A stretch of 64,000 bases of DNA from Elusimicrobiota bacterium (GTDB lineage: Bacteria > Elusimicrobiota > Elusimicrobia > Elusimicrobiales > UBA9959). A model generated the notes under the pieces. That model was given only the letters and a program-made list of their open reading frames with translations, searched no databases and was not told the DNA's origin. The DNA is taken from NCBI GenBank assembly GCA_026388155.1, contig JAPLKI010000001.1, positions 1-64,000 of the forward strand. Direction: 5' to 3'. Numbering within the stretch: position 1 is the first letter of the stretch; each line of letters opens with the position of its first letter. The position numbers and the translations under genes were made by a program. Shown here piece after piece: positions 2 through 23,253 of this stretch.

Positions 2-3000
2 CAGTTCATATTCCTTAACGGCCATCTGGGGTCAAGTTCCGTCACAGGAACTCCCAAGCTTACTTCCACTAACGCTCCGACTTTCGGCATCGAGAGCAAT
101 GACACTAACCTTAACCTTATCACCGCCGCAGCCGGGACCAACGCGGCGGTTACAAGGGTATTGAGTGTCAATTCAATCGGCAATATAGGCATCGGGACTA
201 CGGGGCCCGGCAACAAACTTGATGTCTATTCCGCGGGGAGCGCTTTCATCGCCGTAACCGGGACGGGAAACAGCGGTTTTACCGTCAAGAACAACACCGG
301 CGCCCAGACATGGAATACTTATACGGACAACAGCGGCTTCTATCGCGTTGACCGCGCAGGCGGGGGAAGTGAATTTGCAATTGACTCCTCGGGCAGAGTC
401 GGCATCGGCACGGCGGGCCCTGCGACGACCCTAGATGTGAACGGCGGCATTTCCGCGCACGCGACCGGCGGCCAGGCTTTTCACGCCGTCGGCAGAGCGG
501 GCGACAATTTCGCATGGGCGCCTGTTGTGTTCGCGAACGACGGCGTAACTTATACAGGCGGCATGTCTTATGCTCCCGCCGCCGTCATGCTGAGCACCGG
601 CGGCAGCTCATTGGCTCCCCTTACTACCTGGCTGCCGTCGGGCAGAGTCGGCATCGGGACTACGAATCCCGCCGCCAAACTGGACATCAACGGCACCGAC
701 GCCCTCAAAATCCCGTTCGGCACCATAGCGCAGCGTCCTGTCCCCGCCGTGAACGGCATGCTGCGGTTTAACAGCGAAATAGGGAACCTGGAGTATTATT
801 ATAACAGCGGTTGGAATTGTGTCGGCGGCGTGTTCGCGACAGGCGGCAGCGTGCCGGGCGGGGAGGTCGTCGGTTCGTACCGTATTCACAAATTTACCGC
901 CAGCGGCACGTTCAACGTCGTCTGCGACGGCAAGGTAGAGGTCCTTGTGGTCGCCGGAGGAGGTTCGGGCGGCGGTTCTAACGGCACAAGCATCGGCGGC
1001 GGCGGCGGCGGCGCGGGAGGAGTCGTTTATAACTCCGCAGTTTCCGTATCGCAGGGCAGCATCGCCGTTACGGTCGGCGCGGGCGGAATCGGCGTCAGCG
1101 GTTTTGCCGCCGGCAATAACGGCGGAGATTCTGTCTTTTCTATTTTGACGGCGAAAGGCGGCGGTTATGGCGGAACCTGGACCATCGCTCCCACCGTCGG
1201 CGGCTCAGGCGGCGGGGCCGGGGAAAACGGACAAAGTCTGGATGGCGCCGCCGGTACTTCGGGACAGGGTTTTGGCGGCGGGAACGATAATGGTTATGAC
1301 AGCGGAACCCCAAGCGCGGGCGGCGGCGGCGGCGGCGCCGGCCAGACAGGCGGCTATTCCAGGAGCGATATTACAGGCGGCTACGGCGGAATAGGGAGTC
1401 CGTATCTTATTTCCGGAACACCCGCTTATTATGGCGGCGGCGGCGGCGGGTCCGGCAGTACCGCCAGGGGCGCCGGCGGCTGGGGCGGCGGGGGAGACGG
1501 GAAAGGGGTGGCTACCGGGCTTGGAACTAATGGCGCCGCTAATACCGGCGGAGGCGGCGGCGGTTCCTTGACCAACGCCAGTGAAGCCGCGCAGCCCGGC
1601 GGCAACGGCGGCTCCGGCATGGTGATCATCCGCTACCCGATAGTCGCCAACCTCACAGTCCCCGCGATCACGACCGTGAGCCCCGCTTACGGACCGCAGG
1701 GGACGGTCATTACTATCACGGGCACCGGCTTTGTTGCCGGCGGGAAAGTATATGTCGGAACTGTCGAGGCGGTCGTTAACACGCTCACGGCCACGCAAAT
1801 TACCGCGACCACGCCCGCAAGCGCCACCGGCGGCGCCAGAACTGTGACGGTATTAAATCTCCCCGACCAAAGCTACGGCATGAAGGCAATAGCTTTCACC
1901 TACATGATGTCCGCGACAGGCGGCACGGAATCTAATGTCGGAGGATACCATATCCATACATTTACCGCCGTCGGCACCAGCGCGTTTACCGTGGCCACCG
2001 GCGGCAGCGTTGAAGTACTTGTCGTTGCCGGCGGCGGAGGAGGCGGCGGGCAGCTTGCCGGCGGCGGCGGCGCCGGCGGATATAATTATGTGGCGGATTT
2101 TGCGGTTGTCAATGCCGCGTACAGCCTCTCGGTTGGCGCCGGCGGCGCCGGCGGCCCCGCTACGGCGCCTTACAATATGAACCAAGGTACGAACGGCGGC
2201 AATTCTGTTTTCGCGACCATAACTTCTATAGGCGGCGGCGGCGGCGGCGTGTATGATAATACTTACGCCGTAGGAAAAAATGGCGGCAGCGGCGGCGGCG
2301 GCGGCGATTCGGATACGGCCCCGCAACGCCGGGCAGGCGGTTCGGGCACCGCCGGCCAGGGATATCAAGGCGGCTCCGGCGAAGGGGGTACGGCGTACTA
2401 TGTGGGCGGCGGCGGCGGCGGCGCGGGCGGTCCGGGAGTAAGCGGGGCCAGCTTCGTCCGCGGCGGGAATGGCGGGGCGGGACTGCAATCCACTATCTCC
2501 GGAACGCCCGCTTACTATGCCAGCTGCGGCGGCGGGAACGCCTACTATGGTTATTCCACAATAGCGGGAGTCGCAAGCCCCGGCGGCGGCGGTAATGGCG
2601 GCAGGAACGGGAACGGGGGCAATGCTACCGCAAATACGGGCGGCGGCGGCGGCGGCGGCGACTGGAATGTAGTCAGTGGCGGTAATGGCGGTTCCGGCAT
2701 CGTGATCATCCGCTACCCGACAAATCCATCCTTATGGGATGCCGCTCCTTCTGTAACAAGCGTAAGTCCCGTCTATGGAAGAGGCGGGTCTGCGGTTACT
2801 CTCACAGGGTCTAATTTTGCCACCCCCGCCGCTGTAACTATCGGAGGGCTTTCAGCGCAGGCAACTACCGTGGACAGCGGCCATATTACCGCTATTATTC
2901 CGTTCCTGGCCTCGACCGGAGTTTATAATATAGTGGTCACGAACCCGGGCGGCCAGTCAAGCACCCTTACCGGGGCCCTTACCGCTACGGTTTATGCGGC

Positions 3001-6000
3001 AGGCGGCACGGAATCCGATTCGGCAGACTACCATTATCACACATTTTACTACACCGACCCGATGACAGTCTTCACCGGCGGCAATGTCGACACCCTTTTG
3101 GTCGCCGGCGGGGGCAGCGGAGGGAATTATACCACTACTAATGCCAACGGAGGAGGAGGAGGCGGCGGCATGATTTCCAAGCCGACATTCGCCGTTACCC
3201 CGCAGACATATAGTGTTACGGTCGGGCTTGGTGGTGTTGCAGTTGCCGCCTCAACCAACCACCAGGGCTACAATGGCGGAAATTCCATTTTCAGCTCGCT
3301 CACGGCCATTGGCGGCGGCGGCGGCGGCGGCACAGGCGCAGGTTCGGGCCTGGCCGGCGGCAGCGGCGGCGGCGCCGCCTATAACAATTCCGGCGGCGGC
3401 GCCAGCCAGCCAGGCGGCTTTGCCAATGCCGGCGGATCTGCCGGCTATACCTGGACCGGCGCCGGCGGCGGCGGCGCCGGTTCCCCGGGGATCAGCGGTA
3501 ATTTTAATCCCAACGCCAGTCCGAGCGGAAACGGGGGAGCCGGCTATCCAAGCATACTATCGGGTGCGCTGCAATATTATGCCGGCGGCGGCGGTGGCAG
3601 CGGCAATTCCTCCGAGCGCGCTGGAGACGGCTATCACGGCGGCGGCCGGGGCGAAGGCACCACTTCGCAGTATAATTACAATGTTTATACCGTCGGAATT
3701 AACGCAACGACAAAAGGCAGCGGTACCCCCACCGCCATCGTTAATAGCGGCGGCGGCGGCGGCGGTGGTTCCTACTGGGCGAGCAATGGCGGCTGGAGTA
3801 CCGGCTCAGGCGCGGGCGGTTCCGGCTATGTCGTAGTCCGCTACTCTACCGATCCCACCTTATGGAACGCTCAACCCACTTTAACAAGCATAAGTCCCAG
3901 CTATGGCACCGGAAGAGGCCAATATCCTATCACTCTCACGGGGTCTAATTTCGCCACACCCGCCGCCGTGACTATCGGGGGGGTGACAGTGGAGGCGACT
4001 ACCATTGACTCCCAGCATATCAGTGTCATTGTTCCGGTTCTGCCCGCGGGCGGTATGGAAGACGTAGTAGTTACAAACCCGGGCGGCCTGTCCAGCACGC
4101 GTGTTAAAGGATTCGCCGCAATGGCTTACGCGACAGGCGGCACGGAGTCCGATTCGGGACTGTACCACATCCAGAAATTCACCGGCGGCGGCACCTTGAG
4201 CGTCCTCAGCGGCGGCCCTGTTGAAGCCCTTGTGGTCGGCGGCGGCGGCGGCGGCGCGGGCGGCCTTGGCGGGGGCGGGGGCGGCGGCGGCGTTCTTAAA
4301 ATGACCGCGACAGTTACACAGGCGGGTTATGCCGTAGTAGTCGGCGGGGGGGGCGCGGGCGGCGTGAACGGTACCGGCTCAAACGGCGGGGCCAGCACAA
4401 TATTCGGCGCTACCGCCGCGGGCGGCGGCGCCGGCGGCGGGCCCCACGCTGGAACTAACGGGGTCGCGGGCGGGAGCGGCGGGGGCTGTTCATCGACCGA
4501 CTCGCAGATGCCTGTGGGCGGCGCAAGCTCCGGAAATAATTTAGGCGGCAATCCTGGAACTATTTACGGCAATCAGGGAGCCAGTCAAATCATCCCAAGA
4601 ACCGGGAGTCCCTGCAGAGGCGGCGGCGGCGGCGGCGCGGGCGGCCCCGCTCCTAACGTCGACGATAATTCCGCCCTGAACACCAGCCTTTATGGAGGAG
4701 GTTCGGGAGGTATAGGTATCACAAGCGACATTCTGGGTACCAATTACTATTGGGCGGGCGGCGGCGGCGGCGGAACTTACAGCCCGGGATACGCCGGCTA
4801 TGGCGGGTTGGGCGGCGGCGGCGGCGGCGGCGCCCAGGATGGCGCCGGTTACAATGGCGCGGGCGGAGGAAGCGCTTTAAATTCAGGCGGTACCGGCGGC
4901 AATCCGGCCGGCGTCGGCGGAACCAATACGGGCGGGGGCGGCGGCGGAAGTTTGTGGCAGACCACGACCGGCGGCGCGGGCGGCTCCGGCATCGTAGTTG
5001 TCCGCTACTCAAATAATTTCGCCAACTGGGACGCCGCTCCCTCTTTGACAAGCGTAAGCCCCGTCAAAGGCAGTACAATAGGCGGAAATACTATGACTCT
5101 CACAGGGTCCAATTTTTCCGCGCCCGCCAGTGTAACTATCGGAGGGGTCCCGGTAATAGTGGAAACTACCGTCAATAGCGGCCAGATAATTGTTGTTATG
5201 CCGAATCTGGGTTCAGCCGGCGCCAAGGATGTGGTAGTTACAAATCTGGGCGGCCAGTCCAGCACTCTTAGCGGGGCATTTACCGCGTATACCATGGTTG
5301 TCGCGCAAGGCGGCGTGGAATCTGATTGGGGACTCTACCACATTCACACATTTAACAGCGCCGCCACCTTTAACGTCCTCAGCGGCGGCACTGTTGAAGC
5401 CCTTGTGGTCGCCGGCGGCGGCAGCGGGGGAAACCACAGCACTACCAACGCCAACGGCGGCGGCGGCGGCGGTTGCGTGGTTGAAAACGGGGCGGTAACC
5501 GTTACCGCGCAGCCATATAATGTTCTGGTCGGGGTTGGCGGCCTTGCAATTGCCAACGCGACCAACGCCCGGGGCAACAATGGTTCAAATTCCGTGTTCA
5601 GCACGCTCACGGCCATCGGCGGCGGCGGCGGCGGCGGTTCAGGTTCCAGCGGCGGGCCGGGCCTGACCGGCGGCAGCGGCGGAGGCGGAGCCTATGTCAA
5701 CGGCTATGCCGGGAATAGCAACCCGGGCGGCGGAGCCAGCCAGCCGGGCGGCTATGCCAATGCCGGCGGGGCCAGCAATTATACGTGGACCGGCGGCGGC
5801 GGCGGCGGCGCCGGCGGCGCCGGAGTTGCCGGTAATGTCTGCGGCAACTGCAGTCCGAGCGGAAATGGCGGAACCGGCTATGCGACCGCAATATCCGGTT
5901 CAAAACAATATTATGCCGGCGGCGGCGGCGGCAGCGGCAATTCCTCCGAGCGCGCCGGAGACGGCTATCACGGCGGCGGCCGGGGAGAGGGCACCACTTC

Positions 6001-9000
6001 ATTCTATAACTACAACTCTTACCCTGTTCAGGTTAATGCGACAACAGGAGGAAGCGGTACCCCCACCGCGATCGCAAATACCGGCGGCGGCGGCGGCGGC
6101 GGTTCCTACTGGGCCTCCAATGGCGGCTGGGGCAGCGGCTCAGGCGCCGGCGCCATCGGCGTTGTCATCATTCGCTACTCAAAGGATCCCACCAACTGGG
6201 GCGCCGCTCCCAATTTAACGGGTGTGACTCCCGGCTTCGGCAAGGCGGTAGGCGGATATTCGCTTACTCTCACCGGATCCGGTTTTTCCTGCCCTGTCGG
6301 TGTAACTATCGGAGGGGTATCGGCGACGCAGATAACCACTATTAACAGCACCCAGATCACCGCTATCGGTCCGGCTCTGCCGATAGGCACCAAGGATATA
6401 GTAGTTACTAACCAGGGCGGCCAGTCAAGCACGCTGGCCGGACAGTTCATCGTGGCGAACCTGGTTTCCGCGACAGGCGGCACGGAATCCGATTCGGGAG
6501 GATACCACATCCACAAATTCCTCGTCAACGACACCTTTAACGTCCTGGCCGGCGGCACTATTGAAGTCCTTGTGGTGGCCGGCGGCGGCGGCGGCGGCTC
6601 GGATATGGGCGGCGGCGGCGGCGGCGGCGGGGTGGTATATAGCCCTTCTTATAATGCTTCCGTGGGAGCCAATACCATAATTATCGGCGGCGGCGGCGCC
6701 GGCGCTCCCGCCGGCGTCAGTCAGGCGGCCGGCTCTAACGGCGGCAATTCTTCATTCCCCGGATTGGCGACGGCGATAGGCGGCGGCGGCGGCGGTTCGG
6801 AATACTCCGTTACCACTCATCCGGCCGGCAACGGCGGTTCCGGCGGCGGAGCTTCCGCCGGCGCGCAGCTGCCGAGTTCGAGCTATGGCGGTAACCGGGG
6901 CACCGGGACTTACGGGCAGGGCTATGACGGCGGCTGGGGAATTTACGCGTGGTATGCCGGCGGCGGCGGCGGCGCGAACGGGCCCGGCCAGAGAATTCCC
7001 TACCCCGGCGGCCCCGGAGTTCTGAACCCGATCTTAGGGCCCGATTATTATTGGGGCGGCGGCGGCGGCGGGGGCGGCTATTCCGACTGCGGCGGCAGCG
7101 GCGGCATCGGCGGCGGCGGCGGCGGCGCTGTCTGCGCCACCACCGGCGGCGCGGGTTATAACAACGGGGCGGCCGGCGGCGGCGGAGTTATAAATTCCCA
7201 GACTAACACGCCCGGCGGCGCCGCAGGCGCCAACACCGGCGGCGGCGGCGGCGGCGGCTCGCATTACAACTCCAATAACTATGGCGGCGCGGGCGGCTCC
7301 GGCATCGTTATAGTCCGCTACCCGACCGATCCCACCTTATGGAACGCCCAGCCCGCTTTAACAAACATAAGTCCCGCCTCGGGCTCAGGAAGAGGGGGAT
7401 ATCCGGTCACTCTCACAGGGTCTAATTTTGCTATAGGCGCTATTGTAACTATCGGGGGGGTACAGACGGCCGCAACCACTGTTAACAGCACACAGATCCG
7501 CGCTATTGTCCGGCCTCTGACCGCGGCCGGCTTTTTGGATGTGGTAATTACAAATCCGGGCGGCCTGTCCAGCACGCTTAGCCAGGCGTTTACCGCGACG
7601 CCTTCCGCGTCAGGCGGCGCGGAATCTACTTCGGGAACATACCGCATTCACACATTCCTCGGCACCGACGTGCTTACGGTCCCCACCGGCGGCAAGTTTG
7701 ACGTACTTGTGGTCGCCGGCGGCGGCGGCGGCGGCGGCGATGTGGGCGGCGGCGGCGGCGGCGGGCTGGTATACAGCCCTGTAACCACTCTTACCAACCA
7801 GGCCTATACGGTGACGGTCGGCGGCGGCGTCGCGGGCGGCTCCAACACAGCCTCGAACGGCGGCAACTCCGTGCTTGCAAGCATAACCGCGTACGGCGGC
7901 GGCGCCGGCGGCGGCTGGGCCGGCCAGGCCGGCGCAGCCGGCGGCTCCGGCGGCGGAGCCACCAGCAATATGGGCTTTAGCAGCGGCGGAGCCGCGCCCT
8001 ACAGCGGCCAGGGCTATCCGGGCGGCGGGGGCGGCGGAAACCAGGGCGGCCAGAATGAATATAGCGGTTCAGGCGGCGGCGGCGGGGCCGGCCATCCGGG
8101 CGGAGTTGGAGTCAGCCCGGGCGACACCGGAGTGCTTAACTGGAGCGCCGGCTCAACCACTTCCGGCTATGGCGGGAACGGGTTGCAATACGATATCAGC
8201 GGAGCCTGGACATATTACGCCGGCGGCGGCGGCAGCTCGAGCGACGGCAATTCATATTATGGCGCTGGCGGCCTGGGCGGCGGCGCCAGGGGCGGCACCA
8301 GTTATCCCGGAACCGCTAATACGGGCGGCGGGGGCGGCGGCGGCAACGGCGCCGGAGCCGCCGGCGGTTCCGGTATCGTGATCGTCCGCTACTCGACCGA
8401 CAGCTCCTTATGGACCGCCACTCCCTCTTTGACAAGTGTAAGCCCCGTTTCCGGAAGAGCCAGAACCGTGATTACTCTCACGGGGTCCAATTTTGCCAAC
8501 CCCGCCGTTGTAACTGTCGGAGGAATAACGGCGGCCGCGACTTTCGTCAATAGCACCCAGATCACCGCTGTTGTCCCGGTTCAGACTTCAATCGGCCCTA
8601 AGAACGTGGTAGTCACGAACCCGGGCGGCGGGTCAAGCACAAAGGCCGGAGGATTTACCGCAACGGTTTCCGCGATAGGCGGCGCGGAATCCGATTCGGG
8701 AGGCTACCACTACCACACCTTTACCGGCACCTACGGCCTGATCGACGACTTTATTGTCGACACCGGCGGCCCTGTACAGGTATTTGTCTGGGGCGCAGGC
8801 GGCGCCGGAGGCCGTATCGGCGGCTGGAATTATGGCTCTTACGGCGGCGGCGGCGGCGCGGCCAGCGGCATAGTGACCGTAGCCAATAATACGCTCTATC
8901 CCGTCGTCGCGGGCAGGTTCGGCATGATCAACAGCTATTGGAATTATACTAACGTGCTCGGGGTCGGAGGCGGGGGGTACTCGTCAAATGGTAACGCCGA

Positions 9001-12000
9001 TAATCAGTACAGCGGCGGCGGCGGAGGTTATTCGGGAATATTCCTTACGTCCATCGCACAGGGTAACTCTATTCTGATCGCCGGCGGCGGCGGCGGCGGC
9101 AGCTCCAGCGACGCTGACGGTCCACTTGGCACGTATGGCACGGGAAATAGCGGAGGAGGAGGCGGCGGGACCACCGGGCAGGCCGGATATTGCCCATACA
9201 TTCCATCCCCGGGGTTACCGGGAAATCCCGGAACTCAGTCGGCGGCGGGAGCGTCTGTCACTTCGGGCTCTTGTTTCTACAGCAACGGTACAGGCCTCGC
9301 GGCCGGGGCTCTTTCCGGCGGCGTAACCTGGTCCTATAGCTACGCCGGCGGCGGCGGCGGCGGCTATTGGGGCGGCTCAGCGGGCGGTTATTACAATTGC
9401 GTTCCTCACAATATGTGCGGCGGCGGCGGCGGCTCGGGCTACTATAACCCGGGTTATGTTACCGGCGCGATATTAACCCAGGCTGTGGGAGCGACGCCGG
9501 GTGATTCTGCAAATCCGCTCAGAGGTTCATATGGCAACGGCGGCCCATATACAGGTAACGGCAATAACGGCAACCCCGGCGTTGTAGTCATCCGCTACGC
9601 GACAGACGCCTCCTTATGGGCCGCCACTCCCTCTTTAACAGGCGTGAGCCCCGCCGCCGGCAGGACGTCGGGCAGATATACGATCACTCTCACGGGATCT
9701 AATTTCGCCGCAGGCGCCACCGTAACCATCGGAGGGATCGCGGCGAACGCGGTTACCGTCAACAGCGGCCAGATAACCGTTTTTGTTCCGGACCTGGGTT
9801 CAGCCGGCGCCAAGAATATAGTGGTCACAAATCCGAGCGACGGTTCAAGCACGCTTACCGGAGGATTTACCGCGTTCAATATGGTTTATGCGCTGGGCGG
9901 CACGGAGTCCGATTCGGGAGGATATCACTATCACACCTACAACACCAAAGACAATTTTACGGTCGTCAGCGGCGGCACTGTCCAGGTATTTGCCTGGGGC
10001 GGCGGCGGCGCGGGAGGTTCCGCCGGCTGGGTTTCCGGTTCTCCGGGCGGCGCCGGAGGAGCGGCCAACGGCACAGTAACCGTAGCTAACGGCACGGTCT
10101 ATCCTGTCGTAGTGGGCGGCCCCGGCGTGGTTAATAGCGCCGCCGGATTAGGAGCTATCGGAGGCGGGGGAACGGCTACAGGCAATGGCAGCGGCAACAG
10201 CTACACCGGCGGGGGCGGCGGTTATTCGGGATTATTCGTGACGTCCGTTGCCCAGGGTAACGCTTATCTGATCGCGGGCGGCGGCGGCGGCGGCGGCAAT
10301 AGCCGCGCGGAAGCCGGAAACGGCGGCGGCGGCGGCGGCGGTACCAGCGGACAAAGAGGGTTTTCAATGTATGACGGTAAAACAGCCTACGGAGGCAATC
10401 CCGGCACTCAATCCGCGGCGGCTGACGCGAGCTGCGACGGCATCACCAATGCGGGCGGCCAGGGAGCGCTTCAGGGCGGAGTGACCAAATCCAACAGCTA
10501 CGGCGGCGGCGGCGGCGGCGGCTACTGGGGAGGTTCGGGGGGAGGGTATAGCGAGCCCAACACTATGGCCGGCGGCGGCGGCGGCTCGGCATACTACAAC
10601 CCGAGTTATGTCAATGCCGCGAATTTAACAGCCGCGTACGCAACAACTCCGGGCGATTCGGCGAATTCGCTTAGAGGCAGCGCCGGCAATGCGGGCGGGG
10701 TCGCCGCTAACGGAACCTCAGGCATCGTAGTCATCCGCTACCCGACCGATGCCTCTTTATGGGCCGCCACCCCCTCTTTAACCAGTGTAAGCCCCGCCGT
10801 AGATTCTCCAAGAGGCGGGGACCCTGTCACTCTCTCAGGTTCCAACTTTGCCGTAGGCGCTACCGTAACTATCGGAGGGGTCGCGGCGAAACAGGTGACT
10901 ACCGTTAATAGCGGCCAGATCACCGCTATTGTTCCTCCCCAGGCAGCCGGCGTTAAGGATGTGGTGGTTATAAATCCGGGCGGCCAGATAAGCACGCTTA
11001 CCGGAGGGCTTAATGTATATAACATGGTTTACGGGACAGGCGGCATGGAATATAATTCGGGAGGATACCACATTCACAAATTTAACCAGAGCGACACATT
11101 TACGGTGGTAGGCAGCGGCAATGTGGACGTCCTTGTTGTCGCCGGCGGCGGCAGCGGTGGAAATTACAGTACTACCAATGCCAACGGCGGCGGCGGCGGC
11201 GGCGGCGTGATAGTAAACAATGCCTTCCCCGTTACCGCACAGGCATATGCTGTTACGGTCGGGTATGGCGGCAATTGGATAGCCAATTCCACCAATGCCC
11301 GGGGCAATAATGGAGGGAATTCCGTTTTCAGCTCGCTCACGGCCCTTGGCGGCGGCGGCGGCGGCAGCACAGGCACCGGCGCGGGTCTGACCGGAGGCAG
11401 CGGCGGCGGCGCTACCAATAATTATGGCGGCGGCGGCGCCAACCAGCCGGGCGGCTTTGCCAATGCCGGCGGGGCTGCCGGCTATACCTGGACCGGCGGC
11501 GGCGGCGGCGGCGCGGGTGCCGCGGGAATCAGCGGTAATGTCTGCGGCAACTGCGCTCCGAGCGGAAACGGGGGGTACGGATTCCCGAGCGCTCTCTCCG
11601 GTGCGCTGCAATATTATGCCGGCGGCGGCGGCGGCGCCGGCAATTCCACTGAGCGCGCCGGAGACGGCTATCACGGCGGCGGCCGGGGCGAAGGCACCAC
11701 TTCGCAGTATAATTACAATGTTTACACCAATCAGATTAACGGAACAACACTGGGGAGCGGTTATCCTAACGCAGTTATAAATACCGGCGGCGGCGGCGGC
11801 GGTGGTTCCTACTGGGCGGCCAATGGCGGCTGGAGCCGCGGCTCAGGCGCGGGCGGCGCCGGCATAGTGATAGTCCGCTACTCAAATGACCCCTCCTTAT
11901 GGAGCGCCCAGCCCACTTTATCAAGTATAAGCCCCACCTATGGTCCCGGGAAAGGCCAATATACGGTCACTCTCTCAGGATCTAATTTTGCCACGCCCGC

Positions 12001-15000
12001 CGCTGTAACTATCGGAGGGACGACACTGGAGGCCACTACCGTCAACAGCGGCCAGATCACCGCCGTGGTTCCGCCTCTGGCCGCGGGCGGTATGAAAGAT
12101 GTAGTGGTTACGAACCCGGGAGGCCTGTCCAGCACGCTTACTAAAGGATTTGCCGCAACGATGTATGCGACAGGCGGCACGGAATCTGACTGGGGGCTGT
12201 ACCACATCCACACCTTTACCGGCAGCGGCACATTGAGCGTTGCAACCGGCGGCAATGTTGACGCCCTTGTGATCGCCGGCGGCGGCGGCGGCGGCGGACA
12301 GCTTGCCGGCGGCGGCGGCGCCGGCGGATACAGCGCCGTGACAAGTTTCCCTATCACTAATACCGCGTACGCGGTCACAGTGGGCGGCGGCGGCGCGGGC
12401 GGCCCAGCTACATCGCCTTACAGTATGAACCGCGGTTCGAATGGCGGCAATTCTATTTTCTCAAGCATAACTTCTATAGGCGGGGGCGGCGGCGGCGTGT
12501 ATAATGATACTTACGCTCCAGGAAACAGTGGCGGAAGCGGCGGCGGCGCCGGCGATTCGGATACGGCTCCGACACGGCGGCCCGGCGGCGCGGGAACTGC
12601 CGGACAGGGCTATGCCGGCGGCTCCGGCGAAGGGAGTCCGGCGTACTATGTGGGTGGCGGCGGCGGCGGCGCGGGCGGCCCGGGAGAAAATTCGGTCTCG
12701 CAGGTTAAAGGCGGAAATGGCGGGCCGGGACGTCCAAATGATATCACCGGGACTCTCACTTACTATGCCAGCGGCGGCGGGGGGAACGGCTACTATGGTT
12801 ACGCTACATCACAAGGATTTGCGAGCGCCGGAGGCGGCGCGAATGGCGCAAGGGGTTCTGGAGCGAACGGGCCTGCCGCGACGGCAAATACGGGCGGCGG
12901 CGGCGGCGGCGGCGACTGGAATGTGGTCTCCGGCGGCGCCGGAGGCTCCGGCATCGTAATAGTCCGCTATTCAAAAGATCCCTCCTATTGGAACTCCGCT
13001 CCCTCTTTAGGAAGTATAAGTCCCACTTTCGGCAATCCGGCGGGCGGATATATGCTGACCCTCACGGGGTCCGGTTTTGCCGCGCCCGCCACTGTAAGTA
13101 TCGGAGGAGTCGCGGTACAACAGGAAACCACCGTTAACAGCGGCCAGATAACTGTTCTTCTTCCTAATCTGGGTTCGGGCGGAGCCAAGGATGTGGTTGT
13201 TACCAATCCGGGCGGCCAGTCAAGCACGCTTACCGGAGGATTTACCGCGTATAACATGGTTTCCGCCACGGGCGGCACGGAATCCGACTGGGGCCCGTAC
13301 CACATTCACACATTTTACAGCGGCGCTTCATCCTTGAACGTCCTCGGCGGCGGCAATGTTGAAGTCCTTGTGGTCGCCGGCGGCGGCGGCGGCGGCTCCG
13401 ACATGGGCGGCGGCGGCGGCGCCGGAGGCGTGGTATATAACCCCTCCTACGCTGTTTCCGCGGGAGCATATTCCGTGAATGTGGGCGCGGGCGGCGCCGG
13501 CGCTCCAGCCGGGGTAAACCAGGTAAGAGGAACCAGCGGCGGTAATTCCCTGTTCCTCGGAGTGACTACGGCGATAGGCGGCGGCGGCGGCGGTTCGGAA
13601 TACAGCACCGCCACTAATCCAGCCGCAGCCGGCGGCTCCGGCGGCGGTTCCGCCAGTTGCACTAATCCCGGTCCGGGCGCGGGCACCGCCGGGCAGGGCT
13701 ATGCCGGCGGGCCTAACGGCGGCTGTTATTATCCCAGCGGCGGCGGCGGCGCCGGCGGCGTTGGTTCAACCAGCCCCGGTCCCGGCGGCCCCGGAGTTCG
13801 TAATATGATCTTGGGAACCGCTTATTATTGGGGCGGCGGCGGCGGCGGCGGCGGCTACACCGTCTGCGGCGGCAATGGCGGTTTCGGCGGCGGCGGCGGC
13901 GGCGCTACCTGCGCGACCAGCGGCGGCACGGGCGGGTTAAACCAAGGCGCCGACGGCGGCGGCGGGTATATAGTTGCCCAATGTAACCAGCCCGGCGGCG
14001 CAGGCGCCGCGAATACCGGCGGCGGCGGCGGCGGCGGTTCGCATTACAACTCCAATAACCCTGGCGGCGCGGGCGGCTCCGGCATCGTAGTGGTTCGCTA
14101 TTCAAAGGACCCCTCCTACTGGACCTCCACTCCCTCTTTGGGAAGTGTAAGTCCCAACACAGGCCCCACGATTGGCGGTTATTTGATCACTCTCAATGGG
14201 TCCGGTTTTTCAGCGCCCGCCACTGTAACTTTCGGAGGGGTCGCGGCAACGCAGGTAACTACCGTCAACAGCGGCCAGCTTGTCGTTATTATGCCGGTCC
14301 TGACGCTTGGCGCCAAGGATGTGGTGGTCACAAATCAAGGCGGCCTGACAAGCACGCTCAGCGGAGGGTTTACCGTAACCACGCCGCTTGCCTCGTGCGC
14401 CGCTCTGAAAACGGCCGGCAATAATTCCGATGGAGTGTATTGGATCCAGCCGGCCGCGACTCCCTTCCGCGCGTATTGCGATATGACCACGAACGGAGGC
14501 GGCTGGACCTTGGTGGCCAATATCGCCCCGGCCGACGGGAACAGTGTCGGCTACAACGCCCAGAATTTCTGGACCACGCAGGCCGAGTACCGCAACTTTG
14601 ACAATAGCTTCGCCAGCGATTACAAGAGCCCGGCCGCTTATGGCCTGGCCGCCGATTACCTGATGATAGAATCGGCCAATACGGGGGCCGCCGGTTCGAT
14701 CCTGGGCTGGCGGAGCTGGCCGATGACCTCCCACAGGACCTTCGGCTCCTTCTTTACAACAGGCATCGTGGCGGTGCATGGCACGGACGCCTGCGAGACG
14801 GGAGCTCCGAATGCCTCTAGCGTAGGCTCAACAAGCAGCCAGGACGACATTATCAGGCAGGGAGGCTGCCTGTATGCCGACGTCAATCCAAGCTCCAGCG
14901 GGGAAGCCGACCTGATCCGTCTTAGCCCGATGTCTTACAACGTAAGCCAGGACAATATGATGGCCGGGTTCGGCTCATGCATTGACTGCGGCACAACCTG

Positions 15001-15190
15001 GCAGGGCGCAGCGCGGCCTTATATGGGCATAGACAGGGCCGCATGCGGCGCCGCCAGCTGCAATTATTCCCAGATCTGCCGCGTCGCCAATCCAGCGTCC
15101 TCCGCCGATTGTCTCGGGAGTTACTGCAGCGGCACCTACGGCTCAGGCGTGTGCAACACCCTCTGGAACAGCCGCTTCTTTGTGAAATAA
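2..15190 (+). CDS. Giant Gly-rich / IPT-TIG repeat surface protein with fibrinogen-like C-terminus (5' end outside window)
   Basis: The frame is open from base 2, so the true start and any signal peptide lie upstream; 5062 residues are visible. The first ~270 residues carry three collar motifs of the form GIGTTxPxxKLDVNG, known from phage tail-fibre-like and large bacterial surface proteins. Twelve units of about 1.1 kb follow. Each has an opening GGTESDxGxYHIHTF, a strand VEVLVVAGGG, a long polyglycine-rich stretch, a closing GIVIVRYSxDPSxW, and an IPT/TIG Ig-like domain (SVSPxxG...LTGSNF...VTIGG...VVTNPGGQSSTL). The last ~270 residues resemble a fibrinogen-related domain (DGVYWIQP, YCDMTTNGGGWTLV, many Cys). 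The polyglycine stretches resemble Gly-rich domains of phage adhesins and ALK, which pack as polyglycine-II helices. It is probably an extracellular adhesin or fibre. The secretion route cannot be seen, and no transporter lies beside it. Confidence 0.9.
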   Translation, partial: QFIFLNGHLGSSSVTGTPKLTSTNAPTFGIESNDTNLNLITAAAGTNAAVTRVLSVNSIGNIGIGTTGPGNKLDVYSAGSAFIAVTGTGNSGFTVKNNTGAQTWNTYTDNSGFYRVDRAGGGSEFAIDSSGRVGIGTAGPATTLDVNGGISAHATGGQAFHAVGRAGDNFAWAPVVFANDGVTYTGGMSYAPAAVMLSTGGSSLAPLTTWLPSGRVGIGTTNPAAKLDINGTDALKIPFGTIAQRPVPAVNGMLRFNSEIGNLEYYYNSGWNCVGGVFATGGSVPGGEVVGSYRIHKFTASGTFNVVCDGKVEVLVVAGGGSGGGSNGTSIGGGGGGAGGVVYNSAVSVSQGSIAVTVGAGGIGVSGFAAGNNGGDSVFSILTAKGGGYGGTWTIAPTVGGSGGGAGENGQSLDGAAGTSGQGFGGGNDNGYDSGTPSAGGGGGGAGQTGGYSRSDITGGYGGIGSPYLISGTPAYYGGGGGGSGSTARGAGGWGGGGDGKGVATGLGTNGAANTGGGGGGSLTNASEAAQPGGNGGSGMVIIRYPIVANLTVPAITTVSPAYGPQGTVITITGTGFVAGGKVYVGTVEAVVNTLTATQITATTPASATGGARTVTVLNLPDQSYGMKAIAFTYMMSATGGTESNVGGYHIHTFTAVGTSAFTVATGGSVEVLVVAGGGGGGGQLAGGGGAGGYNYVADFAVVNAAYSLSVGAGGAGGPATAPYNMNQGTNGGNSVFATITSIGGGGGGVYDNTYAVGKNGGSGGGGGDSDTAPQRRAGGSGTAGQGYQGGSGEGGTAYYVGGGGGGAGGPGVSGASFVRGGNGGAGLQSTISGTPAYYASCGGGNAYYGYSTIAGVASPGGGGNGGRNGNGGNATANTGGGGGGGDWNVVSGGNGGSGIVIIRYPTNPSLWDAAPSVTSVSPVYGRGGSAVTLTGSNFATPAAVTIGGLSAQATTVDSGHITAIIPFLASTGVYNIVVTNPGGQSSTLTGALTATVYAAGGTESDSADYHYHTFYYTDPMTVFTGGNVDTLLVAGGGSGGNYTTTNANGGGGGGGMISKPTFAVTPQTYSVTVGLGGVAVAASTNHQGYNGGNSIFSSLTAIGGGGGGGTGAGSGLAGGSGGGAAYNNSGGGASQPGGFANAGGSAGYTWTGAGGGGAGSPGISGNFNPNASPSGNGGAGYPSILSGALQYYAGGGGGSGNSSERAGDGYHGGGRGEGTTSQYNYNVYTVGINATTKGSGTPTAIVNSGGGGGGGSYWASNGGWSTGSGAGGSGYVVVRYSTDPTLWNAQPTLTSISPSYGTGRGQYPITLTGSNFATPAAVTIGGVTVEATTIDSQHISVIVPVLPAGGMEDVVVTNPGGLSSTRVKGFAAMAYATGGTESDSGLYHIQKFTGGGTLSVLSGGPVEALVVGGGGGGAGGLGGGGGGGGVLKMTATVTQAGYAVVVGGGGAGGVNGTGSNGGASTIFGATAAGGGAGGGPHAGTNGVAGGSGGGCSSTDSQMPVGGASSGNNLGGNPGTIYGNQGASQIIPRTGSPCRGGGGGGAGGPAPNVDDNSALNTSLYGGGSGGIGITSDILGTNYYWAGGGGGGTYSPGYAGYGGLGGGGGGGAQDGAGYNGAGGGSALNSGGTGGNPAGVGGTNTGGGGGGSLWQTTTGGAGGSGIVVVRYSNNFANWDAAPSLTSVSPVKGSTIGGNTMTLTGSNFSAPASVTIGGVPVIVETTVNSGQIIVVMPNLGSAGAKDVVVTNLGGQSSTLSGAFTAYTMVVAQGGVESDWGLYHIHTFNSAATFNVLSGGTVEALVVAGGGSGGNHSTTNANGGGGGGCVVENGAVTVTAQPYNVLVGVGGLAIANATNARGNNGSNSVFSTLTAIGGGGGGGSGSSGGPGLTGGSGGGGAYVNGYAGNSNPGGGASQPGGYANAGGASNYTWTGGGGGGAGGAGVAGNVCGNCSPSGNGGTGYATAISGSKQYYAGGGGGSGNSSERAGDGYHGGGRGEGTTSFYNYNSYPVQVNATTGGSGTPTAIANTGGGGGGGSYWASNGGWGSGSGAGAIGVVIIRYSKDPTNWGAAPNLTGVTPGFGKAVGGYSLTLTGSGFSCPVGVTIGGVSATQITTINSTQITAIGPALPIGTKDIVVTNQGGQSSTLAGQFIVANLVSATGGTESDSGGYHIHKFLVNDTFNVLAGGTIEVLVVAGGGGGGSDMGGGGGGGGVVYSPSYNASVGANTIIIGGGGAGAPAGVSQAAGSNGGNSSFPGLATAIGGGGGGSEYSVTTHPAGNGGSGGGASAGAQLPSSSYGGNRGTGTYGQGYDGGWGIYAWYAGGGGGANGPGQRIPYPGGPGVLNPILGPDYYWGGGGGGGGYSDCGGSGGIGGGGGGAVCATTGGAGYNNGAAGGGGVINSQTNTPGGAAGANTGGGGGGGSHYNSNNYGGAGGSGIVIVRYPTDPTLWNAQPALTNISPASGSGRGGYPVTLTGSNFAIGAIVTIGGVQTAATTVNSTQIRAIVRPLTAAGFLDVVITNPGGLSSTLSQAFTATPSASGGAESTSGTYRIHTFLGTDVLTVPTGGKFDVLVVAGGGGGGGDVGGGGGGGLVYSPVTTLTNQAYTVTVGGGVAGGSNTASNGGNSVLASITAYGGGAGGGWAGQAGAAGGSGGGATSNMGFSSGGAAPYSGQGYPGGGGGGNQGGQNEYSGSGGGGGAGHPGGVGVSPGDTGVLNWSAGSTTSGYGGNGLQYDISGAWTYYAGGGGSSSDGNSYYGAGGLGGGARGGTSYPGTANTGGGGGGGNGAGAAGGSGIVIVRYSTDSSLWTATPSLTSVSPVSGRARTVITLTGSNFANPAVVTVGGITAAATFVNSTQITAVVPVQTSIGPKNVVVTNPGGGSSTKAGGFTATVSAIGGAESDSGGYHYHTFTGTYGLIDDFIVDTGGPVQVFVWGAGGAGGRIGGWNYGSYGGGGGAASGIVTVANNTLYPVVAGRFGMINSYWNYTNVLGVGGGGYSSNGNADNQYSGGGGGYSGIFLTSIAQGNSILIAGGGGGGSSSDADGPLGTYGTGNSGGGGGGTTGQAGYCPYIPSPGLPGNPGTQSAAGASVTSGSCFYSNGTGLAAGALSGGVTWSYSYAGGGGGGYWGGSAGGYYNCVPHNMCGGGGGSGYYNPGYVTGAILTQAVGATPGDSANPLRGSYGNGGPYTGNGNNGNPGVVVIRYATDASLWAATPSLTGVSPAAGRTSGRYTITLTGSNFAAGATVTIGGIAANAVTVNSGQITVFVPDLGSAGAKNIVVTNPSDGSSTLTGGFTAFNMVYALGGTESDSGGYHYHTYNTKDNFTVVSGGTVQVFAWGGGGAGGSAGWVSGSPGGAGGAANGTVTVANGTVYPVVVGGPGVVNSAAGLGAIGGGGTATGNGSGNSYTGGGGGYSGLFVTSVAQGNAYLIAGGGGGGGNSRAEAGNGGGGGGGTSGQRGFSMYDGKTAYGGNPGTQSAAADASCDGITNAGGQGALQGGVTKSNSYGGGGGGGYWGGSGGGYSEPNTMAGGGGGSAYYNPSYVNAANLTAAYATTPGDSANSLRGSAGNAGGVAANGTSGIVVIRYPTDASLWAATPSLTSVSPAVDSPRGGDPVTLSGSNFAVGATVTIGGVAAKQVTTVNSGQITAIVPPQAAGVKDVVVINPGGQISTLTGGLNVYNMVYGTGGMEYNSGGYHIHKFNQSDTFTVVGSGNVDVLVVAGGGSGGNYSTTNANGGGGGGGVIVNNAFPVTAQAYAVTVGYGGNWIANSTNARGNNGGNSVFSSLTALGGGGGGSTGTGAGLTGGSGGGATNNYGGGGANQPGGFANAGGAAGYTWTGGGGGGAGAAGISGNVCGNCAPSGNGGYGFPSALSGALQYYAGGGGGAGNSTERAGDGYHGGGRGEGTTSQYNYNVYTNQINGTTLGSGYPNAVINTGGGGGGGSYWAANGGWSRGSGAGGAGIVIVRYSNDPSLWSAQPTLSSISPTYGPGKGQYTVTLSGSNFATPAAVTIGGTTLEATTVNSGQITAVVPPLAAGGMKDVVVTNPGGLSSTLTKGFAATMYATGGTESDWGLYHIHTFTGSGTLSVATGGNVDALVIAGGGGGGGQLAGGGGAGGYSAVTSFPITNTAYAVTVGGGGAGGPATSPYSMNRGSNGGNSIFSSITSIGGGGGGVYNDTYAPGNSGGSGGGAGDSDTAPTRRPGGAGTAGQGYAGGSGEGSPAYYVGGGGGGAGGPGENSVSQVKGGNGGPGRPNDITGTLTYYASGGGGNGYYGYATSQGFASAGGGANGARGSGANGPAATANTGGGGGGGDWNVVSGGAGGSGIVIVRYSKDPSYWNSAPSLGSISPTFGNPAGGYMLTLTGSGFAAPATVSIGGVAVQQETTVNSGQITVLLPNLGSGGAKDVVVTNPGGQSSTLTGGFTAYNMVSATGGTESDWGPYHIHTFYSGASSLNVLGGGNVEVLVVAGGGGGGSDMGGGGGAGGVVYNPSYAVSAGAYSVNVGAGGAGAPAGVNQVRGTSGGNSLFLGVTTAIGGGGGGSEYSTATNPAAAGGSGGGSASCTNPGPGAGTAGQGYAGGPNGGCYYPSGGGGAGGVGSTSPGPGGPGVRNMILGTAYYWGGGGGGGGYTVCGGNGGFGGGGGGATCATSGGTGGLNQGADGGGGYIVAQCNQPGGAGAANTGGGGGGGSHYNSNNPGGAGGSGIVVVRYSKDPSYWTSTPSLGSVSPNTGPTIGGYLITLNGSGFSAPATVTFGGVAATQVTTVNSGQLVVIMPVLTLGAKDVVVTNQGGLTSTLSGGFTVTTPLASCAALKTAGNNSDGVYWIQPAATPFRAYCDMTTNGGGWTLVANIAPADGNSVGYNAQNFWTTQAEYRNFDNSFASDYKSPAAYGLAADYLMIESANTGAAGSILGWRSWPMTSHRTFGSFFTTGIVAVHGTDACETGAPNASSVGSTSSQDDIIRQGGCLYADVNPSSSGEADLIRLSPMSYNVSQDNMMAGFGSCIDCGTTWQGAARPYMGIDRAACGAASCNYSQICRVANPASSADCLGSYCSGTYGSGVCNTLWNSRFFVK
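835..14378 (+). repeat. Twelve-unit array of Gly-rich + TIG modules
   Basis: Unit starts, taken at the GGTES-type motif, lie near 835, 1909, 2992, 4123, 5296, 6463, 7600, 8665, 9882, 11023, 12160 and 13256, a period of 1065-1217 bp. By internal landmarks, units 3, 5 and 10 share AGDGYHGGGRGEGTTS; units 2 and 11 share QLAGGGGAGGY and SIGGGGGGVY; units 6 and 12 share SDMGGGGG and SHYNSNN, with unit 4 partly alike; units 8 and 9 share VQVFxWGxGGAGG. Runs of GGC are long throughout. Because the repeat is a triplet, slippage would change Gly-run length without breaking the frame. Confidence 0.9.
14379..15187 (+). other. Fibrinogen-related C-terminal domain of the giant protein
   Basis: After the twelfth TIG domain the composition changes sharply: polyglycine ends and Cys, Trp and Tyr appear. 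The start (SCAALKTAGNNSDGVYWIQP, then YCDMTTNGGGWTLVAN) matches the opening signature of fibrinogen-related/intelectin-like lectin domains, which usually bind glycans. I infer a tip-located ligand-binding domain. The remainder is too divergent to name calcium ligands. Confidence 0.7.
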
Positions 15191-15634: not shown

Positions 15635-18445
15635 ATGACACGACAACTGGTTTACCGGGCATTACTGGCCGCCGCGCTGCTCATCCCGGGCGTTGCCGAA
15701 GCCAGAATAAGCTTCGGCCTGCCTTCCGCCGTTAAAAATGCCGTAAGCAAACTTCAGAGCAAGAAGAACAGCGCGACGGTAATTATTTCGCTGACCGCAA
15801 ATCCCGCGAGTATTTCCACCGGCACGTTCACAACTCTAACCTGCCTCGCCTCCAACGCGAACGGCGACGCGCTGACTTACAGCTGGTCGGCCGCAACCGG
15901 GACTATTTCCGGCGCAGGCCCGCAGGTTACATGGACCGCGCCCCTGTCTTCGGGCACATACGCCGTTTCCTGCACGGTTTCCGACGGCAAGGGCGGTTTT
16001 GTCCGGTCAAGCGCGCATGTGGCGGTTTTTACCATAAACCGCGCGCCGGTAATTACTTCATTGACCGCAAATCCCCCGGGTATTTCCACCGGCGGGGTTA
16101 CAACAATAACCTGCGCCGCCTCCGACGCGGACGGCAATGCGCTGACCTACGCCTGGAGCGCGGCCTCCGGCACGCTAGCCGGCACCGGCCCGCAGGTTAC
16201 CTGGACCTCGGTTTCGAGCGGCACTTATTCGATCGCCTGCGCCGTGTCGGACGGCCAGGGCGGGTCCGCCCAGTCAGGCGTAAATGTGGCGGTTTCTGCC
16301 GGGAACTATGCGCCGGTGATCTCTTCATTTACCGTAAACCCCCCAAGTATTTCCACCGGGATGATCACAACGATCACCTGTAACGCGGCCGACCCGGACG
16401 GAGACGCGCTGACTTACGTCTGGGACGCGGCCTCCGGCACAATATCAGGCATAGGTCCGCAGATTTCATGGACCGCGCCGCTTTCCAGCGCCGCTTATTC
16501 GATCTCCTGCGCGGTTTCCGACGGTAATGGCGGGTCCGTCCAGTCAAGCACAAATATAGTGGTTTCCGCTGTGAACCATGCGCCGGTAATTATTTCATTG
16601 ACCGCAAGTCCCACGAGCATTTCCACCGGAACAGCCGCAACGATCACCTGCGCCGCGTCCGACCCGGACGGCGACGCGCTGACCTACGCCTGGAGCGCGG
16701 CCTCCGGCACGCTGGCCGGTTCCGGCTACCAAATTACATGGACCGCGCCGGCACACGGCGGCACTTATCCCATTGCCTGCGCTGTGTCGGACGGCAAAGG
16801 CGGGTCCGTCCAGTCCAGTACAAATGTGGTGGTTTTCTCCACGAACCATGCGCCGGTAATAACTTCATTAACCGCAAGTTCCCCGAGTATTTCCACCGGG
16901 ACAGCCGCAACACTTACCTGTAACGCGACCGACCCCGATGGCGACACGCCGCTGAGCTATGTATGGAGCGCGGCCTCCGGCACGCTGGCCGGCTCCGGCT
17001 ACCAGGTTACCTGGACCGCGCCGGCTTCCAGCGGCACTTATTCGATCGCCTGCACTGTGTCGGACGGCCAGGGCGGGTCCGTCCAGTCCAGCACAAATGT
17101 GGCGGTTTTCTCCGCGAACCATGCGCCGGTAATTACTTCATTGACCGCAAGTCCCCCAAGCATTTCCACCGGAACATTCACAACGGTCACCTGCGCCGCG
17201 GCCGATCCGGACGGCGACGCGCTGACTTACGTCTGGAGCGCGGCCTCCGGCACGCTGGCCGGCTCCGGCTATCAGGTTACATGGACCGCGCCGGCTTCCA
17301 GCGGCACTTTTTCAGTCGCCTGCACTGTTTCCGACGGTAATGGCGGGTCCGTCCAGTCAAGCATGATCATAGTGGTTTCTTTCACTCACTGGGCTTCTGT
17401 TTACGCCGGCAGGGAGCACACGCTGGCGATAAAAACGGACGGGACGCTCTGGGCCTGGGGGCGCAATGATCTGGGGCAATTGGGCCTTGGACATACAACA
17501 TCAACGCCCACCCCCACACAGGTGGGAACTGACAATGACTGGGCTTCCATTTCCGGCGGCGATAATCATACGCTGGCGATAAAAACAAACGGGACGCTCT
17601 GGGTCTGGGGATTAAATGATGCCGGGCAATTAGGTATTGGAAACGCAATATCAACGCCCACCCCCACACAGGTGGGAACTGACGGCTGGTGGTCTTCCGT
17701 TTCCGGGGGCGCGTATCACTCGCTGGCAGTAAGAACGGGCGGCTTCCTCAAGTCCTGGGGAGGCAATAGCTATGGGCAATTAGGGAATGGGAATATCGCA
17801 GACCAGCCAAATCAACCTACGCCGGTGGGGCTTGGCAAGTCCTGGGTCTCCGTTGCCTGCGGCGAGTTTCACACGCTGGCGGTAACACAAAGCGGAACAC
17901 TCTGGGCCTGGGGAGCTAATAGCACTGGGCAATTAGGCATTGACTCTTTAACCGACCAATCCACCATTAAGCAGGTGGGAGCTGACTTCGACTGGTGGTC
18001 TGTTTCCGGCGGCGATTATCACTCACTGGCAATAAAAACAGATGGTACGCTTTGGGCCTGGGGATATAATAACCATGGGCAATTAGGTCTTGGAAATACA
18101 GATATAGTTCCATCAAATGAACACCCTGTACAGGTGGGAGCTTCCACCGACTGGGTTTCCGTTTCCGGCGGCGGGTCTCACACACTGGCAATAAAAGCGG
18201 ACGGGACCTTATGGGCCTGGGGCTATAACAATCACGGGCAATTAGGTTCCGGGGATACAACGCAGCAGACCGTCCCTACGAAGGTGGGAACCGATACCGA
18301 CTGGGCTTCCGTTTCCGGCGGCGGGTCTCACACGCTGGCAATAAAGACAGACGGGACGCTCTGGGCCTGGGGCTTTAATAATTTCGGGCAATTAGGTCTT
18401 GGAGATATGAACGACAGCGACACGCCGACACAAGTGCATTATTGA
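15635..18445 (+). CDS. Secreted protein: six Ig/PKD-like repeats plus seven-bladed RCC1 propeller
   Basis: The N-terminus MTRQLVYRALLAAALLIPG...AEA is a clear signal peptide. Residues ~48-583 hold six ~90-residue Ig/PKD-like repeats (N/S-HAPVITSLTASPxSISTG, DPDGDALTYxWSAASG, GTYSIACTVSDGxGGSVQSS), each with a Cys pair. Residues ~585-936 hold seven ~50-residue RCC1/BLIP-II repeats (SVSGGxxHTLAIKTDGTLWA, WGxNxxGQLGLG), the right number for a closed propeller. It is probably a surface or exported binding protein; no catalytic motif is visible. It follows the giant surface protein and the first inverted-repeat element. The start is the only ATG before the signal peptide and is preceded closely by a strong hairpin. 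Confidence 0.9.
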   Translation: MTRQLVYRALLAAALLIPGVAEARISFGLPSAVKNAVSKLQSKKNSATVIISLTANPASISTGTFTTLTCLASNANGDALTYSWSAATGTISGAGPQVTWTAPLSSGTYAVSCTVSDGKGGFVRSSAHVAVFTINRAPVITSLTANPPGISTGGVTTITCAASDADGNALTYAWSAASGTLAGTGPQVTWTSVSSGTYSIACAVSDGQGGSAQSGVNVAVSAGNYAPVISSFTVNPPSISTGMITTITCNAADPDGDALTYVWDAASGTISGIGPQISWTAPLSSAAYSISCAVSDGNGGSVQSSTNIVVSAVNHAPVIISLTASPTSISTGTAATITCAASDPDGDALTYAWSAASGTLAGSGYQITWTAPAHGGTYPIACAVSDGKGGSVQSSTNVVVFSTNHAPVITSLTASSPSISTGTAATLTCNATDPDGDTPLSYVWSAASGTLAGSGYQVTWTAPASSGTYSIACTVSDGQGGSVQSSTNVAVFSANHAPVITSLTASPPSISTGTFTTVTCAAADPDGDALTYVWSAASGTLAGSGYQVTWTAPASSGTFSVACTVSDGNGGSVQSSMIIVVSFTHWASVYAGREHTLAIKTDGTLWAWGRNDLGQLGLGHTTSTPTPTQVGTDNDWASISGGDNHTLAIKTNGTLWVWGLNDAGQLGIGNAISTPTPTQVGTDGWWSSVSGGAYHSLAVRTGGFLKSWGGNSYGQLGNGNIADQPNQPTPVGLGKSWVSVACGEFHTLAVTQSGTLWAWGANSTGQLGIDSLTDQSTIKQVGADFDWWSVSGGDYHSLAIKTDGTLWAWGYNNHGQLGLGNTDIVPSNEHPVQVGASTDWVSVSGGGSHTLAIKADGTLWAWGYNNHGQLGSGDTTQQTVPTKVGTDTDWASVSGGGSHTLAIKTDGTLWAWGFNNFGQLGLGDMNDSDTPTQVHY

Positions 18446-19855: not shown

Positions 19856-20249
19856 TATGCACAAGCCAGTGCCGTATTCGGGCCAATGCTTGCGCAGGTG
19901 TCGTTTCAGAGCCTATGGCTTTCAGACGACCTATGGCCATCAAACGGCCAGTTCTTCAGCTCTATCCTCCGGACCGCCGGCAGCCGCCAGGTAATGCCGG
20001 ATCGCCGAAAGCCCTCTGCTTTCAAGCGCTTAAGTATGCTCTCACCGTAATTCCCGGGGCACTTTTGCGCTAAACCGGCCATTTTTCAGCGCTTCCCTGG
20101 TTATACCGTCCCCCAACCCCGAAAATGCGCGTATTCAAGGGCGTTTTTGTGGTTAAAGCACCCGCTTTGACGGGTAAGCGCATGTAATAATAATTTACTA
20201 ATAACTTCGGTATTTCTTCGGGATTGGGGGGCATTTACCTCGTAGACTA
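19856..20249. other. Intergenic, no gene recognised
   Basis: About 390 bp between the right end of the 886-bp element and the next gene. Near 19880-19955 it has a diverged copy of sequence found at 15385-15490 (CCAATxCTTGCGxAGG, then CATCARACGGCCA), also just after an inverted-repeat right end. This suggests an ancient duplication of element plus flank. No convincing promoter was found. Confidence 0.4.
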
Positions 20250-20266
20250 TAGATATAAGATATCTA
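20250..20266. promoter_or_regulatory. Palindrome abutting a start codon
   Basis: TAGATAT-AAG-ATATCTA is a perfect 7-bp inverted repeat whose last base is the A of the ATG at 20266. It sits where a Shine-Dalgarno sequence would be, and none is visible. It could be an operator or an RNA hairpin. This rests on sequence alone. Confidence 0.35.
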
Positions 20267-23181: not shown

Positions 23182-23253
23182 GTAGAATCATTGGTAGAAT
23201 CATTTATAATGTAATATTGATATAACCTTTCTGAAACATCGCTTCTGTATAAT
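23182..23253 (+). promoter_or_regulatory. Promoter region of the motor cassette with direct repeat
   Basis: A perfect direct repeat GTAGAATCATT (23182-23192 and 23194-23204) abuts TATAAT at 23205-23210. A second TGTATAAT ends at 23253, placing a start about 23 bases before the ribosome site of motA. No good -35 hexamer fits either -10, which suggests activator-dependent transcription. The repeat may be the regulator's site. Confidence 0.35.

Follow-up and report, generated by a model that had tools for sequence, protein, structure and literature searches.

The left end of contig C1 of an Elusimicrobiota bacterium carries one very long reading frame of glycine-rich and TIG domains, which raises the questions of how such a chain is built, whether it belongs to the bacterium or to a phage, and what it may do. 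Within the window (the whole stretch of 64,000 nucleotides analysed), the frame covers positions 2-15190 of the forward strand, 5062 codons without a stop, and is still open where the window begins, at base 1 of the contig. The 5' end of the gene therefore lies beyond the contig edge and what is visible is its 3' part, encoding 5062 aa (474 kDa as seen, 27% Gly). Proteins of more than 5000 aa are reported to be abundant in certain bacterial phyla, Elusimicrobiota among them (PMC11573180).

Domain organization of the giant fibre gene

The visible chain begins with a stem bearing three collars, continues with twelve successive pairs of a Gly-rich domain and a TIG domain, and ends in a fibrinogen-like (GGGWT) tip, all encoded on the forward strand. 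The collar repeats, of the phage-fibre/MAT type, lie between positions 185 and 664 (IGIGTT at 185-202, VGIGTA at 398-415 and VGIGTT at 647-664) and match phage tail-fibre PHROGs. The stem-to-head joint RPVPAVNGMLRFNSEIGNLEYYYNSGW is found at 734-814. The best matches of the stem (aa 1-284) are stems located directly upstream of single Gly-rich heads in relatives. All 12 TIG domains (1661-1903, 2747-2965, 3875-4099, 5039-5284, 6209-6448, 7352-7591, 8423-8659, 9629-9868, 10772-10996, 11912-12139, 13001-13237 and 14132-14371 for TIG 1 to TIG 12) scored above the Pfam cut-off (E 7e-10 to 3e-14). The twelve Gly-rich domains (U1 to U12) are 269-323 aa long with a Gly content of 29-37%; nine were above the PF21722 cut-off in a whole-genome profile scan and U5 passed it when the unit was scanned alone, giving 10 out of 12. 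The remaining two, U8 and U9, match ALK_LTK_GRD (PF12810), with 24.8 bits for U8 (cut-off 24.5) and 20.4 bits, below the cut-off, for U9. A literature search on PF21722 itself returned no useful paper. A first-pass annotation of this DNA had described a protein of more than 5000 residues with 12 Gly-rich/TIG pairs, phage-like collars on the N-terminal side and a fibrinogen-like cap, and this description stands.

The exact extent of the cap is narrower than that description suggests. The C-terminal tip (14372-15187) is 272 aa long with 12 Cys and carries the fibrinogen-like motif YCDMTTNGGGW at 14474-14506. It matches GGGWT_bact (NF040941) with 64 bits (cut-off 30, E 9e-18), and a profile of the tip matched a serum lectin in the PDB (7e1e, E 2e-15) as well as intelectins. 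Pfam Fibrinogen_C covers only the first 43 of the 272 residues, only about the first 60-90 residues align well with fibrinogen-like lectins, and the AlphaFold model of the tip is poor (pLDDT 43.7). The likeness to fibrinogen-like/intelectin-type lectins (NF040941; PDB 7e1e, 4wmo) thus consists of the YCDMTTxGGGWTLVA motif and the first ~60 residues, whereas the remainder of the tip cannot be aligned. Support for a fibrinogen fold ends with these ~60 residues: the earlier assignment holds for the N-terminal GGGWT region and not beyond it.

As the assembly is in 25 contigs, the gene sits at a contig edge and its Gly-rich domains resemble those of other phyla, units of several genes or organisms might have been merged in one contig during assembly or binning. 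This is very improbable given the single stop-free frame of 15.2 kb and the differences between the units. Identity between units in the Gly-rich part does not exceed 73% and dS is at least 0.43 for the most alike pairs, values that exclude a simple assembly duplication as the source of the row; within the gene, exact 60-base DNA repeats occur at only 6 positions. For unit pairs of the same class (see below), dN/dS was 0.41-0.55, values that point to purifying selection. GC3 is 0.67 for the whole gene, like that of the neighbouring genes, and is fairly uniform along it (0.62-0.76). Recent acquisition of the gene as one block was also rejected, as its GC3 matches that of its neighbours.

Fold, classes and origin of the Gly-rich domains

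The Gly-rich domain U11 was modelled together with its own TIG domain by AlphaFold (pLDDT 92.1, pTM 0.88, 50 aligned sequences). The best match of the model in the PDB was the fibre protein gp24 of cyanophage Pam3 (7ypx; Foldseek probability 1.00, E 1.7e-6), with a modest TM-score of 0.53 by target length. The same structure was found independently by a profile HMM of the Gly-rich domains (E 8e-4), and 226 viral structure models match the U11-TIG model at E<=0.001. Sequence searches with single units were less sensitive: a PDB search with one Gly-rich domain gave no match, a profile being needed, and a phage BLAST search with one unit gave no match either, probably because of the low-complexity filter. 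In Pam3 gp24, a TNF-like sandwich is prolonged by a lattice of four layers with 12 glycine-rich motifs; the turns at its far end are hypervariable and are the proposed receptor-binding site, and the authors reported a resemblance of the fold to C. elegans ALK (7LIR) (PMC9608196). The units of the giant likewise contain 12 glycine motifs, their most variable columns are the turns between motif pairs, and they share with gp24 the end strand (GIVIVRY/GIIIVQY). From sequence and model, the Gly-rich units are predicted to adopt the TNF-like/glycine-rich receptor-binding-head fold of the Pam3 gp24 type. Prediction of a single unit thus agrees with the earlier proposal that the Gly-rich parts can form polyglycine lattices as in phage adhesins.

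The differences from known heads of this kind lie in their setting. Pam3 gp24 (PDB 7ypx/7yfw; PMC9608196) ends a short trimeric phage fibre in one head and has a separate chaperone, whereas in the giant a single bacterial chain carries 12 heads separated by TIG spacers, and no such chaperone was seen with it. All 12 heads are internal and each is followed by a TIG domain; save for this position, sequence and predicted fold place them in the Gly_rich_2/Pam3 fold family. The gp38 adhesin of Salmonella phage S16 (PMC6851490) has in common with them a polyglycine-II lattice and hypervariable receptor-binding turns, but it is a single head, in which a beta-helix base supports three layers comprising 10 motifs, and no sequence match between it and the units of the giant was detectable. 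The likeness to the ALK/LTK glycine-rich domain concerns U8, just over the family cut-off, and U9, under it; the giant differs in being a bacterial repeat protein devoid of a kinase or a transmembrane receptor.

In relatives, the Gly-rich domain almost always occurs once per protein, as the C-terminal tip of a collar fibre. A match to a unit at E<=1e-20 was present in 11 of the 341 genomes of the phylum searched, the source genome included. Three proteins of relatives have endings similar to that of the giant (TIGx4-GLY-TIG-FReD, TIGx3-GLY-TIGx2-FReD and GLY-TIG-GLY-FReD), so that the Gly-rich/TIG/FReD architecture, whose search in other genomes had been proposed, does recur there, with one or two heads each. 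Among the matches listed and the loci examined, from which rarer large arrays could be missing, the highest number of heads per chain elsewhere was three (L138, Bacteroidota). On a viral contig, a phage adhesin (L235, 3957-5585) combines a Gly-rich head with a GGGWT tip, and its head is 57% identical to U6 over 201 aa. This adhesin sits near a gene for an S74-type fibre.

About seven classes can be distinguished among the twelve heads. Class A comprises U3 (2966-3874), U5 (5285-6208) and U10 (10997-11911), class B comprises U2 (1904-2746) and U11 (12140-13000), class C comprises U6 (6449-7351) and U12 (13238-14131) together with the Bacteroidota L138 and phage L235 heads, and the ALK_LTK_GRD-type heads U8 (8660-9628) and U9 (9869-10771) form class D. 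Three heads are single within the giant: U1 (854-1660) and U4 (4100-5038), each in a class of its own, and U7 (7592-8422), in the class of relative L186. Turn identity was 47% within classes vs 12% between them, compared to 43% vs 28% elsewhere in the head; turn regions were defined partly by column variability and classes came from the same sequences, so this comparison is not fully independent. As turns were picked for their variability, the bias would make them look less, not more, conserved within classes. Among copies inside the giant, turns are 71-77% identical in classes A and B (strands, 57-61%) and 63% in the class C pair (strands, 57%, a weak difference). The ALK-type pair U8/U9 shows the reverse of classes A and B (turns 35% vs strands 67%), with turn positions set on U11 that may not fit the ALK type. 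Combined, these sequence comparisons indicate that class identity sits in the turns.

The row of Gly-rich and TIG domains could also serve as a spacer, long and stiff, with the fibrinogen-like tip held away from the cell and alone responsible for binding. The regularity of the row, with a TIG spacer after each of 12 units, the stability of polyglycine lattices and the lectin-like tip would all fit such a passive stalk. It is nevertheless unlikely for several reasons. Firstly, nearly all relatives and phages have the Gly-rich domain at a tip and do not use it as a spacer. Secondly, a spacer needs no distinct head classes from different lineages. Thirdly, the turns are class-specific and conserved within classes; turns conserved among copies would be predicted where specificity depends on the turns and is retained after copying, but not in a spacer. 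The path of the chain points the same way: in Pam3 and in the U11 model the first and last strands sit in the sandwich, so that the glycine lattice is expected to stand off the chain instead of lying along it. The Gly-rich parts are therefore unlikely to be the material of a rod of polyglycine bundles, and the row is better seen as a chain of heads, of a fold found elsewhere at tips.

The heads of the giant are not one lineage. In a tree of 124 heads (a quick tree of low-complexity Gly-rich alignments, with few well-supported forks), its twelve are spread across several lineages, and a single clade for ten of them (the ALK-type pair U8/U9 being left out) was rejected (AU p=1.6e-5); simple tandem duplication of one unit was rejected on this ground. 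Some heads resemble those of Bacteroidota or phages more than neighbouring units: U12 shares 68% identity with a Bacteroidota head and 66% with U6, its copy within the giant. U7 is closer to relative L186 than to any other unit of the giant. TIG 2-12 cluster with the TIG domains that follow Gly-rich domains in relatives, in a tree with too few columns to say more, and a single origin of these TIGs is compatible with it.

Genomic context and the missing 5' end

The first 21-55 bases of C1 did not overlap any of the other contig pieces examined, and a search of the whole genome gave only weak matches. Among the contig edges examined, only the right end of C10 carries an outward-running fibre gene of the giant's type. 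This C10 piece has a hydrophobic, signal-like start (by eye) and an N-domain present in 32 of the 61 relatives searched; the contig breaks at near-identical repeats. Joined, the two leftover bases of C10 and the one leftover base of C1 preserve the reading frame, which would happen by chance in one case out of three. Synteny is the stronger argument for the adjacency of the two contigs. In four relatives (G010, G006, G032 and G033), the genes of the C10 right end and the PorV-TPR gene of the C1 left end occur together on a single contig, in the same orientation and separated by fibre genes, which places the assembly break inside a conserved fibre locus. C10 is the likely 5' piece of the giant. 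It could instead be a separate fibre gene in front of the giant, as G010 has two fibre genes at the same locus (in the order 366-aa gene, 1842-aa fibre, 1495-aa fibre, PorV-TPR).

The flanks on both sides consist of host genes. Downstream of the giant, C1 encodes a PKD/RCC1 secreted protein, PorV-TPR, a histidine kinase (HisKA), MotA, a FliF/FliG fusion, MotB, NusB, ligA and purH; the upstream side on C10 carries tolB/pal-like genes, valS and an OmpR-type regulator (names by eye). No phage structural gene adjoins the giant, and none was found in the parts of the window scanned. A phage or prophage tail fibre gene inside the bacterial genome would account for the tail-fibre PHROG matches of the collars, the abundance of the head family in phages and the phage adhesin with a Gly-rich head and a GGGWT tip. 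In addition, the same genome holds a Mu-like tail module (Baseplate_J, Gp48, Gp45) on contig C18 (L035, 3800-8903), with a fibre ending in one Gly-rich head, which shows how a phage context would look in this genome. Against the host genes on both sides (among them HisKA, MotA, FliG, NusB, ligA and purH on C1) and the same fibre locus kept between the same host genes in four relatives, a phage origin of the locus has hardly any likelihood left. A phage or prophage context at the 5' end had been named as the finding that would overturn the first-pass annotation; the C10 and C1 flanks speak against it, and the locus is a host fibre locus, not a prophage. The suggestion that the protein is a component of a contractile structure was likewise dropped, nothing of a contractile apparatus being found in the parts of the window scanned.

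Other genes of the window deserve mention. The gene directly behind the giant (15635-18445) encodes a secreted-looking 936-aa protein with ~6 PKD/Big domains and 7 RCC1 repeats, with no counterpart in the syntenic loci of relatives. At 23253-26321, MotA, a fused FliF-C/FliG (M+C) and MotB/OmpA lie together with no other flagellar genes in view, perhaps forming a proton-driven motor for non-flagellar use; the FliG part of the fusion protein also occurs in relatives. PorV/PorQ-like outer-membrane proteins and a papain-like and lectin-like protease with a FlgD/T9SS-type tail are encoded at 20224-21990 and 30833-33594, hinting at a type IX-like sorting route.

Comparison with MAT fibres and proposed function

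The closest plan among bacterial fibres appears to be that of the MAT superfamily of Bdellovibrio (PMC10769870), with a phage-like collar fibre, a signal peptide, an N-domain, exchangeable tips and several paralogues per genome. MAT proteins are typically ~1000 aa long with one terminal tip and no TIG rows, whereas the giant has 12 internal heads with TIG domains (PMC10769870). By analogy, the giant would be close in plan to these fibres but equipped with Pam3-type heads. Collar fibres with an exchangeable C-terminal adhesive tip are indeed present here, the tips varying among paralogues and relatives. The conserved MAT N-domain is beta-rich, spans ~130 aa after the signal peptide and has a cut-off of 60 bits (NF053851). 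This cut-off was reached nowhere in the genome (the best scores, 27-31.6 bits, were obtained with a paralogue on C16) and the C10 piece has no MAT_N match, although its N-domain is homologous to that of the C16 paralogue (E 3e-15). As the MAT_N cut-off is not reached, the giant was not filed as a MAT protein.

A MAT-type prey-recognition fibre of a predatory bacterium would explain the plan shared with Bdellovibrio, from the signal peptide, N-domain and collars to the exchangeable tips and the many paralogues per genome, and the weak Bdello_MAT_N match of one paralogue (31.6 bits). The curated cut-off of 60, out of reach throughout the genome, makes this analogy a rather improbable account. 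Predation is not known from the relatives of the source bacterium. Giant surface ORFs of Omnitrophota (PMC10066038) resemble the giant in being very long, probably extracellular and from a poorly cultured bacterium; they differ in exceeding 20 kb, in often having transmembrane helices and in having few recognisable domains.

We favour, with somewhat better than even confidence, the reading that the giant is an adhesive fibre with many heads, anchored to the cell of a free-living bacterium. The N-terminal domain with its signal peptide (C10, by eye) would be exported and would hold the chain at the cell surface. The collar repeats would form a stem, trimeric by analogy with MAT and phage collars, in which case a fibre would display 36 heads. 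In place of the usual single tip, the chain would present twelve heads of about seven types, Ig-like TIG spacers and a fibrinogen-like, lectin-type tip, each head exposing turns on a rigid polyglycine lattice as a putative binding surface. One fibre could then bind several surface ligands at once and with high avidity, the ligands being probably glycans of other cells or particles. The gene may have gathered its heads from different fibre and phage-type sources, with internal copying in addition. The collars, the predicted head fold and the host flanks agree with the earlier view of a surface or secreted fibre made of phage-like parts and encoded by a host gene, secretion being what we infer.

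Twelve heads of about seven kinds on one chain suggest a single fibre able to hold many targets. A more tentative reading, to which we give somewhat less than even weight, is that the giant is a growing collection of at least seven interchangeable specificities drawn from a head pool common to bacterial phyla and phages, one fibre serving many partners. Phages and MAT-type predators have one receptor-binding head per chain and widen their range by many fibres or by tip swaps. If the collection reading is true, one chain would do what MAT fibres and phages achieve with "many fibres, one tip each". A chain with 12 heads of about seven kinds would be an example of how specificities can be assembled by a cell in a single molecule. 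It also reveals a pool of head types that phages, Bacteroidota and this lineage have in common, with similar turns, so that ligands assigned to one class could be transferable to the others. The giant would also be a putative natural scaffold of serial polyglycine-lattice binders.

Two further observations concern other fibres. Firstly, many collar fibres are clustered in relative G040 (L186, L195, L196); their N-terminal domains are near-identical (AEFEVLDRFSVDGY...) while adjacent fibres differ in their tips, which looks like a tip-swapping fibre repertoire. Secondly, long fibres of "(N)SF(L/V)GYQAGY.NTTG" repeats (L213/L283, L036, L132) represent another widespread shaft type among these fibres.
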